Assembly: GCA_001789965.1 (NCBI GenBank) | Contig: MGBA01000025.1 | Location: forward strand, 3,466 to 40,970 | Reading direction: 5' to 3' | From: Candidatus Roizmanbacteria bacterium RIFCSPLOWO2_02_FULL_40_13 | GTDB taxonomy: Bacteria > Patescibacteriota > Microgenomatia > UBA1406 > GWC2-37-13 | Length of the DNA: 37,505 bases | Shown: positions 2,867 to 20,942 of the stretch, in pieces | How the letters are laid out: the number at the start of each line of letters is the position of its first letter | Numbering within the stretch: position 1 is the first letter of the stretch | Notes under the pieces: model-generated | The model's input: only the letters and a program-made list of their open reading frames with translations | Told to the model about the DNA's origin: nothing | The model's database searches: none | Translations under genes and position numbers: made by a program

Positions 2867-3439
2867 ATGAACGAATCCGAACAGGATCTTCCCGGTGAAA
2901 AAAATCCACAGGTCGTCTTTTCGTGGAAAGCCCCCCTCCGTCCCTACATGCAAAAGAGCCCTAAAATCATCCGGTTCTATCTGGCCCTCGCGCTTCTTAT
3001 TTCACTTATCATCTTCTTTTTCGGAGACCGGATTATACTTATTCCTGTCTGGGCGTTGTTTTTTATTTTCTATGTCTTTACGGTGACTCCGCCCCCTGAT
3101 ATAGAACATAAGATAACACCGTTTGGCATAGAGACAGCCCAGACCACCCTCCGCTGGGATGTTCTGGATCATTTCTACTTTAACCACCGTTTTGGATATG
3201 ACGTTTTGGTCTTGGTCACCCATGGCCCATACCCATATTATGCCTATCTTGTGCTCCCAAACGATGAGATTAAAAAGAAGGTGACGATGATCTTATCCGA
3301 ACATATTATCTATCAGGAAGATCCACATAAAAACTTTACCGACAAGGCTGTTGAATGGCTTGTGAAGCTCGTCCCGGACGAGAGCAGAAATCACACGCCG
3401 CTTAAAGATGATCAGTTAACTTCTTCCCAAAAACCGTAG
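2867..3439 (+). CDS. two-helix membrane protein, unknown function, 190 aa
   Basis: Residues 1-35 are polar. Two adjacent hydrophobic segments (about 37-54 and 56-73) form a membrane hairpin, and a cytosolic-looking mixed alpha/beta domain of about 115 residues follows. This resembles small PH-like or YcxB-like membrane proteins in layout (the TPFGIETAQTTLRWDVLDHFYF segment would be the strand-rich part), but I cannot assign it to a family with confidence. The 3' end overlaps the convergent PIN/HARP gene by 38 bases, so the two transcripts are antisense to each other there. The start is supported by the TACACT box 6 bases upstream. Confidence 0.75.
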   Translation: MNESEQDLPGEKNPQVVFSWKAPLRPYMQKSPKIIRFYLALALLISLIIFFFGDRIILIPVWALFFIFYVFTVTPPPDIEHKITPFGIETAQTTLRWDVLDHFYFNHRFGYDVLVLVTHGPYPYYAYLVLPNDEIKKKVTMILSEHIIYQEDPHKNFTDKAVEWLVKLVPDESRNHTPLKDDQLTSSQKP

Positions 3440-4028
3440 CGTCCATCTCGCGGATGCCAAAGATGCGGCCCCATTTGATAACGCCCTCGTCTGAAGAGAC
3501 AAGATATGCATCTTGCTCTTTGGCAAGGACAATAAGATCAAGGTCTGCTACGCTATCTAAAAAGCCCGTTCTGGTGGCGTTTCTGTAGCGGTCGCGCAAG
3601 GTTTTAACATGTGCTCCGACCGCCTTCTCGAAGTCTTGCTTCGAGTCTTTTACCTGCGAGCCGGCTAGCCCTTTAGCTGCTTTTTTGAGTTCTTCTTCAG
3701 CGATTGTAAGGCCTTTATAGCTCCGATCACGTATGTCTGAGATTAGATTGTAAAATACAGCGGCAGGAAACTCCACAGAAGAGACATGAGGAGACTTTAC
3801 CGCAATCACAGAAAGAAAATCCTTTAGAAAAGCCTGACTTTTATCGTCAAAAAAGCTCATAAGCTCATCGACCACGCGGGGAGGCATAAAAAACTCTGCC
3901 TTTTTCTCTTTTACCATGGTTTTCATGGCTGTTGTAGCTTTTTTCATAACCTCTTCGGTTTTTTTACCCAAGCCCAAACCAGGCGCCATATTGAAAAACA
4001 GATTGGTGTCCAAAACGTACTTATCCAT
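3402..4028 (-). CDS. PIN-domain protein of the RNA ligase partner family (HARP-type protein-only RNase P candidate)
   Basis: The 208-residue protein matches the UPF0278/RNA ligase partner family end to end: MDKYVLDTNLF at the start, FFMPPRVVDELMSFF at 46-60, then a helical insertion, then TGFLDSVADLDLIVLAKE and LVSSDEGVIKWG near the end. The PIN acidic residues are D7, D158, D162, D164 and D180. Members of this family (HARPs, first shown for Aquifex Aq_880) cleave the 5' leader of pre-tRNA without RNA. I recall the same spacing of catalytic aspartates in Aq_880, and that recollection should be checked. The frame extends further upstream to 4247, but the family N-terminus fixes the start at 4028; the extension would run through the hairpin repeat and the divergent gene. 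A TATACT box lies about 10 bases upstream. The gene converges with and overlaps the upstream plus-strand gene by 38 bases. Confidence 0.87.
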   Translation of the reverse strand: MDKYVLDTNLFFNMAPGLGLGKKTEEVMKKATTAMKTMVKEKKAEFFMPPRVVDELMSFFDDKSQAFLKDFLSVIAVKSPHVSSVEFPAAVFYNLISDIRDRSYKGLTIAEEELKKAAKGLAGSQVKDSKQDFEKAVGAHVKTLRDRYRNATRTGFLDSVADLDLIVLAKEQDAYLVSSDEGVIKWGRIFGIREMDATVFGKKLTDHL

Positions 4029-4120: not shown

Positions 4121-4483
4121 ATGGGTATAGAAGCAAGAAGACCAAATAACGTGTTTTCTGAGGGCATGTCTTTCTTTGCAGATCTTTTTGCAAAACCCCC
4201 CCGTGAAGGAGAATTATTGTCTCGAAGAGAACGCAGGCATGAGTCACGGCTTATTCATGATGCGCTGGTTGACCACCTCCGAAAGGTTGGAGTCATAAGG
4301 GCGGCAAAAAACAAGTGGACGACTGAGATTTTTCGTAGTCCGGCCCACCGCATCCCGCTTGAAGAACAAGAAAAATATCGCATTATATGGAGCCAGACCT
4401 CTTCTTTTGACCGCCGTTCAAAAAATAATCGCCAGTGGGTTGAGTTGTGCGGAACGCCCGTAGAACAAGGGGGTACGAAATAA
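4121..4483 (+). CDS. hypothetical basic protein, 120 aa
   Basis: I do not recognise this protein. It is small, soluble and strongly basic, with an Arg-rich helix near residues 34-42 (LSRRERRHESR) and scattered aromatic residues in the C-terminal half. It lies between the HARP gene, from which it diverges, and the oriC/dnaA region. The start is well supported by a promoter with both boxes and six bases between -10 and ATG; there is no Shine-Dalgarno site. Nucleic-acid binding is possible from composition only. Confidence 0.72.
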   Translation: MGIEARRPNNVFSEGMSFFADLFAKPPREGELLSRRERRHESRLIHDALVDHLRKVGVIRAAKNKWTTEIFRSPAHRIPLEEQEKYRIIWSQTSSFDRRSKNNRQWVELCGTPVEQGGTK

Positions 4484-4711: not shown

Positions 4712-6025
4712 ATGCTGTCAACCTTCTGGTCCGGCTTTTTAAGATTTGTTGAGAAAAATAGCAAAGAAAACCCTGTTATTTACTCTCTTCTTAAGCAACT
4801 TCGGCCTATTGAGATGAGCGAAAAGCACATTGTCCTCTCCTGTGATAACCCTGGCTTCGTCTTCTTTCTTCAAAAAAAAATCCATTTCGTCGAAGGATAT
4901 CTTTTCGACCATACTAAGAAAAGGTTGAGGATTGAGATCGTAGTCAAAGCTCAAAATAAAAGACAGGAGCCTCCGCTTCTCCGGTTTGAGCCTACTATTG
5001 AAGACGTTTTTAAGAAAGCCGGCCTCAATGGGACCTTTACTTTCGACAATTTTGCAGTTTCTTCAAGCAATCAGGTAGCTTATGCTGCAGCGCAGGCGGT
5101 CTCTGACTCAATCGGTAAGGCATATAACCCGCTGGTCCTCTATGGAGGCGTCGGGGTGGGGAAAACTCATCTAGCACAAGCTATAGCGCAAAAGGTCCTC
5201 GCGAAAAAACCTAATAAAAAAGTGTTGTTTTCTCCGGGAGATCTTTTCACAAACGAGCTTATTGAAGGAATCCGAGAGAAAAACACGCCCAAATTCCGGA
5301 GAAAGTACCGCCAGCTCAACCTTCTTATCGTTGACGATGTCCAGTTTATAGCCGGTAAAAACACTGTGCAGGAAGAGTTTTTCCACACATTTAACGCGGT
5401 TATCTCAAATGGAGGCCAGATCGTGCTCACGTCAGATAAGCCACCTCATGAAATACGGAGGCTGGAAGACCGTCTCCGTTCGCGTTTTGCAGGCGGTCTT
5501 ACTGTAGACATACAGTCTCCTGATTTTGAACTCCGTTCGGCTATTCTTCTGATAAAAGCGCGTGAAAAAAACATCGACATTGATCTTGAAACCGCAAAGA
5601 TAATCGCAGAACAAGTGGCTGACTCCCGCGCTTTAGAAGGTACGCTTCTGTCACTTTATGCAAAAACTTTAAGTAATGGAGGAAGAATCAACCTTGAGGC
5701 TGTCGAAGATTTTTTTATGAATGTTGTTGAGCAAAAAAATAAGAGGGTCTCCCCTCACGACATCATAAAAACCATCTGTACGTATTACGACGTCCGCCAA
5801 TCTCAACTTAAAAGCCCTAACCGAGCTGAAAATATAGCGCTTCCCAGGCAGATTGCAATGTACCTCCTCCGGAAGGAGCTCGGCCTTAAATACGATCAAA
5901 TTGCAACGCTTCTAAAGAGGAAGGATCACACCACGGTTTTGCATGGTTTTGAGAAGATAAAAAGCCTTCTTGCGAGAAATGATATTTTTAAGAAAGAGGT
6001 TGATAGGATAGTGAATACGTTGTAG
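4712..6025 (+). CDS. dnaA: chromosomal replication initiator protein DnaA
   Basis: DnaA binds DnaA boxes at oriC, opens the duplex and helps load the helicase. The 437-residue protein shows the four-domain layout: N-terminal domain I (about 1-80), a very short linker, the AAA+ domain with Walker A GGVGVGKT at 145-152 and Walker B LLIVDDVQF at 204-212, an RSRF-type segment near 260, and the C-terminal box-binding domain ending in KRKDHTTVLHGFEKI. In most homologues this signature reads DHTTVLHA, so Gly replaces Ala here. The linker domain II is nearly absent, giving a protein near the short end of the family. Start: ATG 4712 directly after the DnaA box pair, with no Shine-Dalgarno site. dnaN follows in the same orientation. 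Confidence 0.97.
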   Translation: MLSTFWSGFLRFVEKNSKENPVIYSLLKQLRPIEMSEKHIVLSCDNPGFVFFLQKKIHFVEGYLFDHTKKRLRIEIVVKAQNKRQEPPLLRFEPTIEDVFKKAGLNGTFTFDNFAVSSSNQVAYAAAQAVSDSIGKAYNPLVLYGGVGVGKTHLAQAIAQKVLAKKPNKKVLFSPGDLFTNELIEGIREKNTPKFRRKYRQLNLLIVDDVQFIAGKNTVQEEFFHTFNAVISNGGQIVLTSDKPPHEIRRLEDRLRSRFAGGLTVDIQSPDFELRSAILLIKAREKNIDIDLETAKIIAEQVADSRALEGTLLSLYAKTLSNGGRINLEAVEDFFMNVVEQKNKRVSPHDIIKTICTYYDVRQSQLKSPNRAENIALPRQIAMYLLRKELGLKYDQIATLLKRKDHTTVLHGFEKIKSLLARNDIFKKEVDRIVNTL

Positions 6026-6146
6026 CTGTGAACAGCTTTTCCACAGATTGTAAACAATGTCTTTTTCCGGTTTACGTTGTGTTGAAAATCTAGAGCGCAT
6101 CTTATACACTTATCCCCAGTCTCTAATACTACGAAGTATTAATACT
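6026..6146 (+). other. dnaA-dnaN intergenic region with degenerate DnaA boxes and a hairpin
   Basis: Near-consensus DnaA boxes are TTTTCCACA (6037-6045), TTATACACT (6102-6110) and TTATCCCCA (6110-6118), the last two in tandem. A perfect 7-base inverted repeat, TAATACT-ACGA-AGTATTA (6124-6141), lies five bases before the dnaN start. This stretch probably forms the second part of a bipartite origin and controls dnaN. No gene is seen in it. Confidence 0.6.
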
Positions 6147-7247
6147 ATGAAAATCAATATAGATAAAGATCTCCTACTAGACAATTTAACGGTTGCCTCG
6201 CGTTTTGTATCTAACCGATTCTCCTCAGTCCCATCTCTTCAAGGAATCCTATTTGAAACCAAAGACAAGCATATAAATCTATACGCGACCAATCTTACCT
6301 CTTTTTTTCACACCAAAATAAAAAATCCCACAACCGAGGAAAAAAAGATAGTTTTCGATCCCAAAAAAGTCATGGAGTTTCTCTCACTTCTCACACCCGG
6401 AATAGTAGAGCTTGACATTGAAGACTCACAGCTTGTGATACGAAAGGATAAGACAAAAGGAACATTTTCTCTTATAAACGCAGAGGATTTTCCCTATCCA
6501 CCAATTGTCAAAGAAAAAGAAGAAAAAATAAAGACAGATGTCCTAAAAAAACATCTTCCGTTGGTGTTATTTGCAGCCTCCTCAGACGACACAAGACCCG
6601 TCTTAAACGGAGTTAATTTCCTAACACAAGATGATGAAATCGCACTTGTCGCAACAGATGGATTTAGACTTTCCCTTCTTAAAATGAAAAAAGAAGACTC
6701 GATTCCACAAATGCTTGTTCCAAAGGGCTTTCTTGAAGAAGTAGTCAGGCTTTCAAAAGAAGAAAAAGAGATGGGTTTGAGATTTTCGGAAAAAGAAAAG
6801 GTGATCTCGTTTACCTTTGGCGACACCACGGTTTACTCGCGTCTTATCACTGGAGATTTCCCCCCGTTTGAAAAAGTAATTCCTTCAGAATCCAAAACAA
6901 AAGCAGTTATAGAAAAAGACGAGTTTTTGCGCAATATCCGAATCGTGTCTGTCTTTGCACGGGAGGTCTCAAACATCGCACTTTTATCTTTTGGGAAAGA
7001 TGGAATCACCATGTCTCCAAAGACAGAAAGAGATGACCAAAACAGCACCCTACAAGACGCAGACGTAGAGGGGCCTCCGCAAAAAGTAGCGTTTAACTTC
7101 AAGTTTATAATCGACTTTCTCATGCATGCGCCGGACAAGAAAAAAATCATCATCGAAGTTCTTCGTCCAGACGCACCCGTAGTCTTTAAAATAGAAGGGA
7201 ATAAAGATTTCTTACACGTCATCATGCCCGTCCGCATCCAAACCTAA
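6147..7247 (+). CDS. dnaN: DNA polymerase III beta subunit (sliding clamp)
   Basis: The beta clamp encircles DNA and tethers DNA polymerase III and other repair factors. The 366-residue product has the three-fold repeated clamp fold of the family: N-terminal MKINIDKDLLLDNLTVASRFV, a middle GVNFLTQDDEIALVATDGFRL segment, which is the most conserved clamp feature, and the C-terminal HVIMPVRIQT that ends the family. The frame is open further upstream to 6057, but the conserved N-terminus starts at 6147, just after the 6124-6141 hairpin. The position directly after dnaA is the usual one. No Shine-Dalgarno site is seen, and the hairpin may affect start-codon access. Confidence 0.96.
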   Translation: MKINIDKDLLLDNLTVASRFVSNRFSSVPSLQGILFETKDKHINLYATNLTSFFHTKIKNPTTEEKKIVFDPKKVMEFLSLLTPGIVELDIEDSQLVIRKDKTKGTFSLINAEDFPYPPIVKEKEEKIKTDVLKKHLPLVLFAASSDDTRPVLNGVNFLTQDDEIALVATDGFRLSLLKMKKEDSIPQMLVPKGFLEEVVRLSKEEKEMGLRFSEKEKVISFTFGDTTVYSRLITGDFPPFEKVIPSESKTKAVIEKDEFLRNIRIVSVFAREVSNIALLSFGKDGITMSPKTERDDQNSTLQDADVEGPPQKVAFNFKFIIDFLMHAPDKKKIIIEVLRPDAPVVFKIEGNKDFLHVIMPVRIQT

Positions 7248-15326: not shown

Positions 15327-15367
15327 TCCCGACGCTTGCGGTCGGGATGCCGACAGAATCGTCGGCA
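15327..15367. repeat. two perfect GC-rich hairpins directly upstream of tRNA-Ala
   Basis: Hairpin 1 is TCCCGAC (15327-15333), loop GCTTGCG, GTCGGGA (15341-15347). Hairpin 2 is TGCCGAC (15348-15354), loop AGAATC, GTCGGCA (15361-15367). They stand back to back and end six bases before the tRNA. They occupy the place where the tRNA promoter would be expected. Both sides are divergent genes, so they are not terminators of a neighbour. Confidence 0.75.
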
Positions 15368-15373
15368 CATTTA

Positions 15374-15446
15374 GGGCCTGTGGCTCAATTGGCAGCGCGT
15401 CTGGCTGGCAGTCAGAAGGTTACGGGTTCGACTCCCGTCAGGTCCA
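15374..15446 (+). tRNA. tRNA-Ala (anticodon GGC)
   Basis: The 73-base cloverleaf has acceptor stem GGGCCTG/CAGGTCC, including the G3:U70 wobble pair that marks alanine tRNAs. The D-arm has one U.C mismatch. The anticodon stem TCTGG/TCAGA holds loop CTGGCAG with anticodon GGC, and the T-arm is ACGGG-TTCGACT-CCCGT. The discriminator is A. CCA is not encoded (CAC follows), so a CCA-adding enzyme is needed. Confidence 0.93.
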
Positions 15447-15452
15447 CACTTC

Positions 15453-19339: not shown

Positions 19340-19412
19340 GGGCCCGTAGCTCAACTGGTAGAGCAGTAGCCTTTTAAGCTATTTGTTGAGAGTTCGAGTC
19401 TCTCCGGGCTCA
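19340..19412 (+). tRNA. tRNA-Lys (anticodon TTT)
   Basis: The 73-base cloverleaf has acceptor GGGCCCG/CGGGCTC, D-arm GCTC/GAGC, anticodon stem GTAGC/GCTAT with loop CTTTTAA (anticodon TTT), T-arm GAGAG-TTCGAGT-CTCTC and discriminator A. CCA is not encoded (CCC follows). Its last three bases, read on the minus strand, are the TGA stop codon of trpE. Confidence 0.95.
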
Positions 19413-20942
19413 CCCTTCTTGTTGAGCGTTTGAAGCTTTTTCCGCAGCGACGACTGCCTGCCTTGCCCCACTTGCTTTTTGAAGACACTCTTCATACTCT
19501 TTTTCAGGATCGCTGTCGGCGACAATACCTGCCCCCGCCTGGATATGAGCAACCGTTTTTCCGTCTTTTTCGGTAAACACAATGGTGCGGAGTCCCAGAC
19601 CAAATTCATAGTTTCCCTTTAGGTCAATATATCCCAAGCCTCCTCCGTACGGACCGCGTTCATCATCCTCAAGCTCGGCAATAATTTCCATCGAGCGAAC
19701 TTTTGGAGCGCCCGAAACAGTGCCTGCCGGGAATGTTGCGCGGATGACATCGACATATGACTTATCAGCTCGCAATGTTCCCATTATCACGCTTTTCATA
19801 TGCATGACCTTTGCAAAAAAAGCAACCGACATCAGTTCCAATACCTTCTCTGATCCAAACTCGACGACACGCCCCACATCATTTCTTGCAAGATCAACAA
19901 GCATGGTGTGTTCAGCCTTTTCCTTTGGATCTTCAGTAAGTTCTTTTGCAAGCCTTTGATCGTCTTCCTCGGTTTTTCCCCTCGGACGGGTCCCCGCAAG
20001 CGGGTCAATAAACACTTTTCCATCCGCAAGTTTACTGATAAGTTCCGGAGGACTTCCTGCAAGGTGAAAGCCACCACCGAAATTAATATAGGTCATGTAA
20101 GGAGAAGGATTGTGCTTCCTGAGTTGCCGATATACCTCAAAAGGATGAGCAGATGTTTGTCGGGAAATCCGTAATGAAAGAACCGTCTGAAACGTATCAC
20201 CGTCCAGAATATGCTCTTTAATGCGTCCCACCTTTTCTTCGTACTCCTCTTTGGTCATGTTTGCCCGTTCGTCTAGGGTGTAGTCTTTTTGCACCGGGAG
20301 AACGTGAGGCAATGAAGGTCCCTGCTCGAGCTGTCGTACCATTTTGTAAAGACGCGCTTGTGCTAAATTGTAATCGTCAGTTATTTTTTCCATCTCATCT
20401 ACAGACATATGAGTTATGGCTGTTATCACCTGACGGAGAGGATGCTGATCAAACGCAATAAAATCTCTGATCTGAAAAAAAAACCCTTTGGGCAGACGCA
20501 AATGATCTCTTTTGTGGGGAGAAACTGTTGGTTCGATGTCTCGAGCGTATCCATACGAGAGAAATCCGACCCACCCGCCAAGAAACGGAGGAAGCACATG
20601 GGGTTCGGGCAGTGAAATTACTTTACGGGAAGGTCGCGATTCTATTGTACTGAGAGGATCTTCGGAACTGTAAGCCGGGACCTGTATGGTGTCTATCGGG
20701 TGTGCGCCGACATAACTATAGCGTCCCATTGTTTCAGGACTTTCGGCGCCCTCAAGAAGAAACGATCCAGGACGACCGCCATCGGACAATCTCCAATATG
20801 CATCAGGCACCGTATGCATATCCGAAGGAAGCTCACAATAGATGGGAATAATACTGTTTGGTTCTACAAGAGCGCGTACCTCCTCAAGCGAAGGTCGAAT
20901 GGTAAGCCTCTGAGATAGAGCCTCTCTATGTTCCGTACTCAT
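19410..20942 (-). CDS. trpE: anthranilate synthase component I
   Basis: TrpE converts chorismate to anthranilate, with TrpG supplying ammonia. The 510-residue protein has the N-terminal regulatory part with FLLEGAESPETMGRYSYVG (the LLEs/GRYS region linked to tryptophan feedback) and the chorismate-binding domain: ISRQTSAHPFEVYRQLR, DPLAGTRPRGKTEEDD, MLVDLARNDVGRV, TFPAGTVSGAPKVRSMEII, and RGPYGGGLGYID. Length and motifs are those of TrpE rather than PabB or MenF, but an aminodeoxychorismate role is not excluded. No trpG or other trp gene is adjacent. The stop codon lies inside the 3' end of the convergent tRNA-Lys. The promoter is TTGATC-16-TATAAT, eight bases from the ATG. Confidence 0.93.
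   Translation of the reverse strand: MSTEHREALSQRLTIRPSLEEVRALVEPNSIIPIYCELPSDMHTVPDAYWRLSDGGRPGSFLLEGAESPETMGRYSYVGAHPIDTIQVPAYSSEDPLSTIESRPSRKVISLPEPHVLPPFLGGWVGFLSYGYARDIEPTVSPHKRDHLRLPKGFFFQIRDFIAFDQHPLRQVITAITHMSVDEMEKITDDYNLAQARLYKMVRQLEQGPSLPHVLPVQKDYTLDERANMTKEEYEEKVGRIKEHILDGDTFQTVLSLRISRQTSAHPFEVYRQLRKHNPSPYMTYINFGGGFHLAGSPPELISKLADGKVFIDPLAGTRPRGKTEEDDQRLAKELTEDPKEKAEHTMLVDLARNDVGRVVEFGSEKVLELMSVAFFAKVMHMKSVIMGTLRADKSYVDVIRATFPAGTVSGAPKVRSMEIIAELEDDERGPYGGGLGYIDLKGNYEFGLGLRTIVFTEKDGKTVAHIQAGAGIVADSDPEKEYEECLQKASGARQAVVAAEKASNAQQEG

Follow-up and report, generated by a model that had tools for sequence, protein, structure and literature searches.

The 37,505-nucleotide stretch of DNA analysed here (the window) encodes a PIN-domain protein of 208 residues and thereby raises the question of whether its host matures the 5′ ends of its tRNAs without the RNA-based RNase P. 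The RNase P RNA is a near-universal ribozyme, and life with HARP (homolog of Aquifex RNase P) as the only such enzyme is known from Aquificaceae and a few others. The gene and its neighbours are located as follows:

3402..4028, minus strand: HARP gene, 208 aa, candidate protein-only RNase P (ATG at 4028, stop at 3402)
2867..3439, plus strand: predicted membrane protein, 190 aa, no Pfam match; convergent with HARP, the 3′ ends overlapping by 38 bases
4712..6025, plus strand: dnaA, divergent from HARP
6057..7247, plus strand: dnaN

The ORF is real on the minus strand; the plus strand of 3402-4028 is riddled with stops. Over its whole length the protein matched PF08745 (PIN_5; Pfam) with 155.6 bits (cut-off 27) and TIGR03875 (“RNA ligase partner protein”; NCBIfam) with 160.9 bits (cut-off 95.3), which bears out its placement by the initial annotation in the RNA ligase partner family that includes the Aquifex RNase P. 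TIGR03875 was also matched by each of the 34 aligned HARP members. Among solved structures, the only strong phmmer matches were seven sequences of RNA-free RNase P, with E-values from 5e-26 to 1e-21. The host had been taken for a CPR bacterium, correctly, since its relatives carry the names Candidatus Roizmanbacteria, Woesebacteria and Microgenomates.

Alignment with Aquifex aeolicus Aq880 (structure 8kd9) and structural prediction placed the functional residues and the spike of the protein as follows:

4010-4008, minus strand: D7, predicted catalytic residue, aligned to Aq880 D7
3557-3555, minus strand: D158, predicted catalytic residue, aligned to Aq880 D138
3545-3543, minus strand: D162, predicted catalytic residue, aligned to Aq880 D142
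3491-3489, minus strand: D180, predicted catalytic residue, aligned to Aq880 D160
3596-3594, minus strand: R145, predicted tRNA-binding residue, aligned to Aq880 R125
3584-3582, minus strand: R149, predicted tRNA-binding residue, aligned to Aq880 R129
residues ~107-145 of HARP, minus strand: lengthened spike-helix hairpin

In this alignment, D7, D158, D162, D164 and D180 correspond to D7, D138, D142, D144 and D160 of Aq880, and the offset is a constant 20 from the second onward, so the aspartate spacing proposed after the Aquifex enzyme was right. All five aspartates are present, but position 164 holds E or G in 10 of 49 HARPs, and D164 was dropped as a defining residue for lack of conservation. 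By comparison, D7, D158, D162, D180, R145 and R149 are invariant in the 49 HARPs, 45 of which come from the retrieved CPR loci. D7, D138, D142 and R129 are essential for the activity of Aq880, R125A being nearly inactive and R129A inactive (PMC8266387). D161 has also been named for this enzyme (PMC8266387); in the chain aligned here it adjoins D160.

The AlphaFold2 monomer model of the protein (pLDDT 94.5) has spike helices at residues 89-121 and 130-153. The predicted fold aligned with Aquifex HARP bound to pre-tRNA (8kd9) with Z 23.1 and an rmsd of 1.8 Å over 188 residues (VIA-align), and with 8kda at E 1.8e-15 (Foldseek). The best-ranked folds in both programs were the HARPs of Hydrogenobacter, Aquifex and a planctomycete (Z 21-23, rmsd 1.8-1.9 Å for the predicted model). 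Between reference positions, the spike hairpin comprises 38-41 residues in families f1 and f2, 26 in Aq880, and 24-30 in known HARPs and family f15. All f1 and f2 members exceed the solved HARPs by 12-15 residues in this hairpin, which is shorter in f3 and f15.

The PIN fold is common to HARP and VapC, and VapC toxins matched the predicted model with Z 12 and below (best, VapC4, Z 11.8). A toxin of the VapC type, or some other PIN nuclease, can nevertheless be practically dismissed: the HARP structures are ahead by 11 Z units, the protein has the spike-helix insertion with its arginines, and a near-universal single copy across the order does not suit a toxin. Nor is there a conserved antitoxin-like partner. 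The small ORF at 4121-4483 beside HARP has counterparts in 0 of 65 related loci; the conserved neighbour is the convergent membrane-protein gene, found downstream of HARP in 61 of 62 loci of the order (the remaining locus ends at a contig edge). We regard the 190-aa membrane protein as locus context and claim no role for it in RNase P. The 208-aa ORF is confirmed, at the level of sequence and predicted model, as HARP, a metallonuclease of the PIN-domain type into which a spike-helix hairpin is inserted, with cleavage activity predicted. It is a new member of an already known enzyme family.

The initial annotation had proposed that, in a genome lacking the RNase P RNA, tRNA 5′ processing could depend on HARP alone, and that the complete genome be searched for rnpB and rnpA. 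In the draft genome of the host (925 kb, 25 contigs, 94.3% complete), neither was found: there was no match to RF00010 or RF00011 (bacterial RNase P RNA models) or to PF00825 (RnpA). Since absence cannot be proved from one draft genome, 144 related genomes, mostly draft MAGs, were compared: 83 of the window's order (families f1-f3; relatives named Ca. Roizmanbacteria and some Woesebacteria) and 61 of other orders of the class.

This comparison revealed 78 genomes with HARP only, 57 with the RNA-based enzyme (RNP) only, none with both and nine with neither (Fisher p 6e-31 for exclusion, without correction for relatedness; the genomes are related and the counts therefore not independent). Within the order, HARP was present in 76 of 83 genomes, including 48 of the 49 with a completeness of at least 90%, while rnpA and rnpB were each over the cut-off in 0 of 83 and reached no credible score in the 82 relatives. 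A 20-bit rnpA match in G081 was rejected as stop-ridden and below the cut-off. Of the 61 genomes outside the order, 57 have at least one of rnpA (52 genomes) and rnpB (53 genomes). HARP was detected in two, which both belong to family f15 and both lack rnpA and rnpB.

A HARP profile built from the 34 members found no match in the seven HARP-less genomes of the order, nor in G105 and G115. The HARP-less genomes are read as gaps, since most are fragmented or less than 90% complete; only one of the seven (G075) reaches 90%. In G075 (90% complete) and in G115 of family f15 (92%), HARP, rnpA and rnpB were all undetected, which may reflect gaps or further change. A phylum-level survey of 380 sampled genomes yielded no full-length HARP outside the family of the host; two partial matches of 18-19 bits were not confirmed by the 34-member profile. 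In a record titled as a Thermoanaerobaculum aquaticum MAG (L179), HARP, dnaA, dnaN and the convergent membrane gene group with Roizmanbacteria. Its HARP is sister to that of G016, and the contig is probably mis-binned.

The order might still possess an RNA-based RNase P and the searches miss its RNA through strong reduction or divergence; HARP would then act as a back-up or in other RNA processing, as in archaea. Both enzymes do occur together in archaea and in most HARP-bearing bacteria (PMC10941002). Against HARP as the RNase P of the order stand the failure of some bacterial HARPs to act on pre-tRNA in assays and the lack of a phenotype in archaea after HARP knock-out (PMC12153264, PMC10941002). 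However, the RNP is also present in the archaea concerned and in most of the bacteria. A conserved-motif scan was also used for rnpB in the class, with the CR-V block (ACARAAYCYGGCTTA) taken from an alignment of 22 rnpB genes. This motif was present in 55 of the 61 genomes outside the order and in four of the 83 within it (G034, G051, G063 and G073). The four matches were discounted as chance: they lack the partner P4 strand (at best 7/10 bases, compared with 10/10 in a true case) and show no RNase P model match at E<=1. The same model that detected rnpB in 53 of 61 neighbours found it in 0 of 83 genomes inside the order, and the loss of the RNP accompanies the presence of HARP in two lineages. 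The searches, made with bacterial RNase P RNA models and the motif, might all miss an RNase P RNA of very unusual form, but with rnpA also gone and its operon closed up (see below), we consider a hidden RNA very unlikely. The preferred reading remains that HARP replaced the RNP.

The rnpA operon carries a scar of this loss. In most of the outgroups examined, the surroundings of rpmH are ordered rpmH-rnpA-yidD-yidC-KH protein, yidD not being present in all. In the genome of the host (L090), yidC follows rpmH after 7 nt, and rnpA and yidD are missing; across the order, the gap between rpmH and yidC is 6-107 nt, without rnpA and yidD. In one f3 genome (G073) a different gene occupies the position after rpmH. 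Since the rpmH-yidC operon has closed up without rnpA, this gene was lost rather than overlooked. The question that the initial annotation had left as an “if”, i.e. whether the RNase P RNA is missing, is now largely answered: the absence from the host's own genome and from its 82 relatives and the excision of rnpA all support HARP as the sole tRNA 5′ enzyme, and it is very probably the only RNase P of its host, cleavage being predicted.

The scar in family f15 differs from that of the order. There rpmH is directly followed by yidD and yidC, without rnpA (rpmH-14 nt-yidD-yidC in G094); yidD thus disappeared along with rnpA in the order and was kept in f15 despite the loss of rnpA. In a tree of YidC, the one gene on which the species relation of f15 to the order is based, the order forms a single clade (100/100), and f15 falls across a 100/99 branch, among RNP-bearing families. 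In the midpoint-rooted HARP tree, the f15 proteins form their own clade, apart from the HARPs of the order and on the side of the solved HARPs. Judged from these sequences, f15 appears to have made the switch from RNP to HARP separately from the window's order.

The tRNA genes of the host (approximately 45) indicate that the missing RNP left a task to be performed. Those in the window, together with a repeat found beside some of them, are:

15374..15447, plus strand: tRNA-Ala (GGC), presumed substrate, with a double-hairpin repeat directly 5′
19340..19415, plus strand: tRNA-Lys (TTT), presumed substrate; a -10-like TAAAAT ends ~13 nt before the tRNA
15330-15373 of the window; ~510-550 of L099; ~364-405 of L112; 1-34 of L117: copies of the double-hairpin repeat

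In Nanoarchaeum, tRNAs are transcribed leaderless. Were this also the case here, RNase P activity would be unneeded and HARP unrelated to tRNA maturation. Predicted -10 boxes do end about 10-15 nt ahead of most tRNAs, the solitary ones included, which implies very short leaders; for tRNA-Lys, the position of TAAAAT predicts a leader of a few nt. However, three tRNA pairs of the host genome are separated by only 1 nt (Cys-Ser) or 5 nt (Arg-Ala and Arg-Lys), and these, like other closely following tRNAs, still need a 5′-processing enzyme. It is most unlikely that the downstream members start at promoters of their own, so leaderless transcription of the Nanoarchaeum type fails to explain the missing RNP. 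The median distance from -10 box to tRNA is also the same in HARP genomes (12 nt, n=52) and in relatives with an RNase P RNA (11 nt, n=34; p 0.85). We therefore find leaderless transcription hardly tenable, and retain HARP as the probable processing enzyme. For the same reason, the short leaders that had been offered as a sign of HARP dependence were rejected as a cue: relatives bearing the RNase P RNA look alike, and the feature has no diagnostic value.

Four tRNA genes of the host genome (Ala-GGC, Ile-GAT, Thr-CGT and Arg-GCG) are immediately preceded on their 5′ side by the double-hairpin repeat (TCCCGACGCTTGCGGTCGGGATTCCGACAGAATCGTCGGAA-like), the Arg-GCG copy being truncated by the contig end. 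Its core, CCGACAGAATCGTCGG, occurs once in the window (chance expectation 0). Possibly the repeat is a REP-like element inserting next to the 5′ ends of tRNA genes. A tRNA-Val (TAC) on L099 is flanked on both sides by near-identical palindromic units (GAGCTTAGCTCGGTGATTGGTCAGCTTAGCTGACCCACC).

Analysis of the wider locus placed dnaA within 2.5 kb of HARP in 32 loci. In 13 of these it is divergent and just upstream, as in the window; in most of the others, dnaA, dnaN and HARP are co-directional, with the HARP start a few bases past dnaN (often ~8 nt, e.g. in L140, L142, L147 and L151). In many bacteria rnpA lies near dnaA; with HARP directly past dnaN, the gene of the protein RNase P is found in that same neighbourhood. 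The family name “RNA ligase partner” proved a misleading cue, as the Rnl3 RNA ligase (TIGR01209) was over the cut-off in 0 of 144 genomes, with M. jannaschii and M. acetivorans positive as controls.

Taken together, it is highly probable that HARP is the only enzyme that removes pre-tRNA 5′ leaders in this organism and its order, where it replaces the rnpA/rnpB RNP, with cleavage predicted and an oligomer mechanism proposed by analogy with Aq880. By this analogy, (i) HARP dimers would assemble into a larger oligomer (for HARPs, a dodecamer or at least a tetramer), (ii) one dimer would grip the tRNA elbow with its arginine-rich spike (R145, R149), and (iii) the aspartates of a neighbouring dimer (D7, D158, D162 and D180, with Mg2+) would cut at the leader/+1 junction. 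Such an enzyme would be essential in the cell. On a broader scale, it is likely that the order (Ca. Roizmanbacteria and allied families) and a second family of the class independently lost the RNase P RNA and RnpA and entrust all tRNA 5′ maturation to HARP, in habitats that are not extreme and with no RNA ligase, i.e. that the ribozyme was replaced repeatedly and permanently.

Loss of the RNase P RNA in bacteria was previously tied to Aquificaceae, a few genera of Nitrospirae and unnamed bacteria, and the order would seem to be the largest bacterial group known without it. Counting the loss in this order, of which about 80 species have been sampled, and the second, independent one, ribozyme replacement becomes a replicated natural experiment. 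Two current ideas, a tie of HARP to extreme habitats and its cooperation with the Rnl3 ligase, can also be put to the test with these lineages. A 2024 review names the bacterial phyla with HARP, Patescibacteria not being among them (PMC10941002), and in a 2025 survey, which links HARP to Rnl3, the 178 bacterial HARPs fall into a few orders from extreme habitats (PMC12153264). The literature searched (openly readable main texts) contained no paper that connects RNase P or HARP with Roizmanbacteria, Microgenomates, Patescibacteria or CPR, and no description of an order-wide, ligase-free HARP-only lineage, although earlier notice is possible. The kind of enzyme is known; the novelty is in scale and pattern, with HARP taking the place of the ribozyme in small CPR genomes across an order and, independently, a second time.

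HARP without RnpA was noted in unnamed unclassified bacteria by Daniels et al. 2019 (PMC6380272), whose genomes may include some of the window's group; in that survey, proteins and not RNase P RNA were scored, the text searched names no CPR lineage, and operons and repeated replacement lay outside the survey. HARP carriers among Halobacteriota, Thermococcales, Gammaproteobacteria and others have a protein of the same family (TIGR03875, PF08745) but mostly also an RNA-based RNase P, which is undetectable in the window's order. Pairing with Rnl3 is usual in the surveyed HARP genomes (89%; PMC12153264), whereas here the ligase is absent. The eukaryotic PRORP is likewise a protein-only RNase P whose metal site is built on aspartates, but represents a different PIN-like subgroup with a PPR domain and evolved independently (PMC10941002, PMC8266387). 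The HARP of the window resembles Aq880 in its whole-length PIN_5 fold (36% identity), in having counterparts of all five aspartates and of R125 and R129, and in belonging to a HARP-only genome. It differs from that enzyme of a hyperthermophile in the longer spike hairpin of f1 and f2 and in its host, a small-genome candidate-phylum bacterium whose relatives are largely groundwater and similar MAGs.
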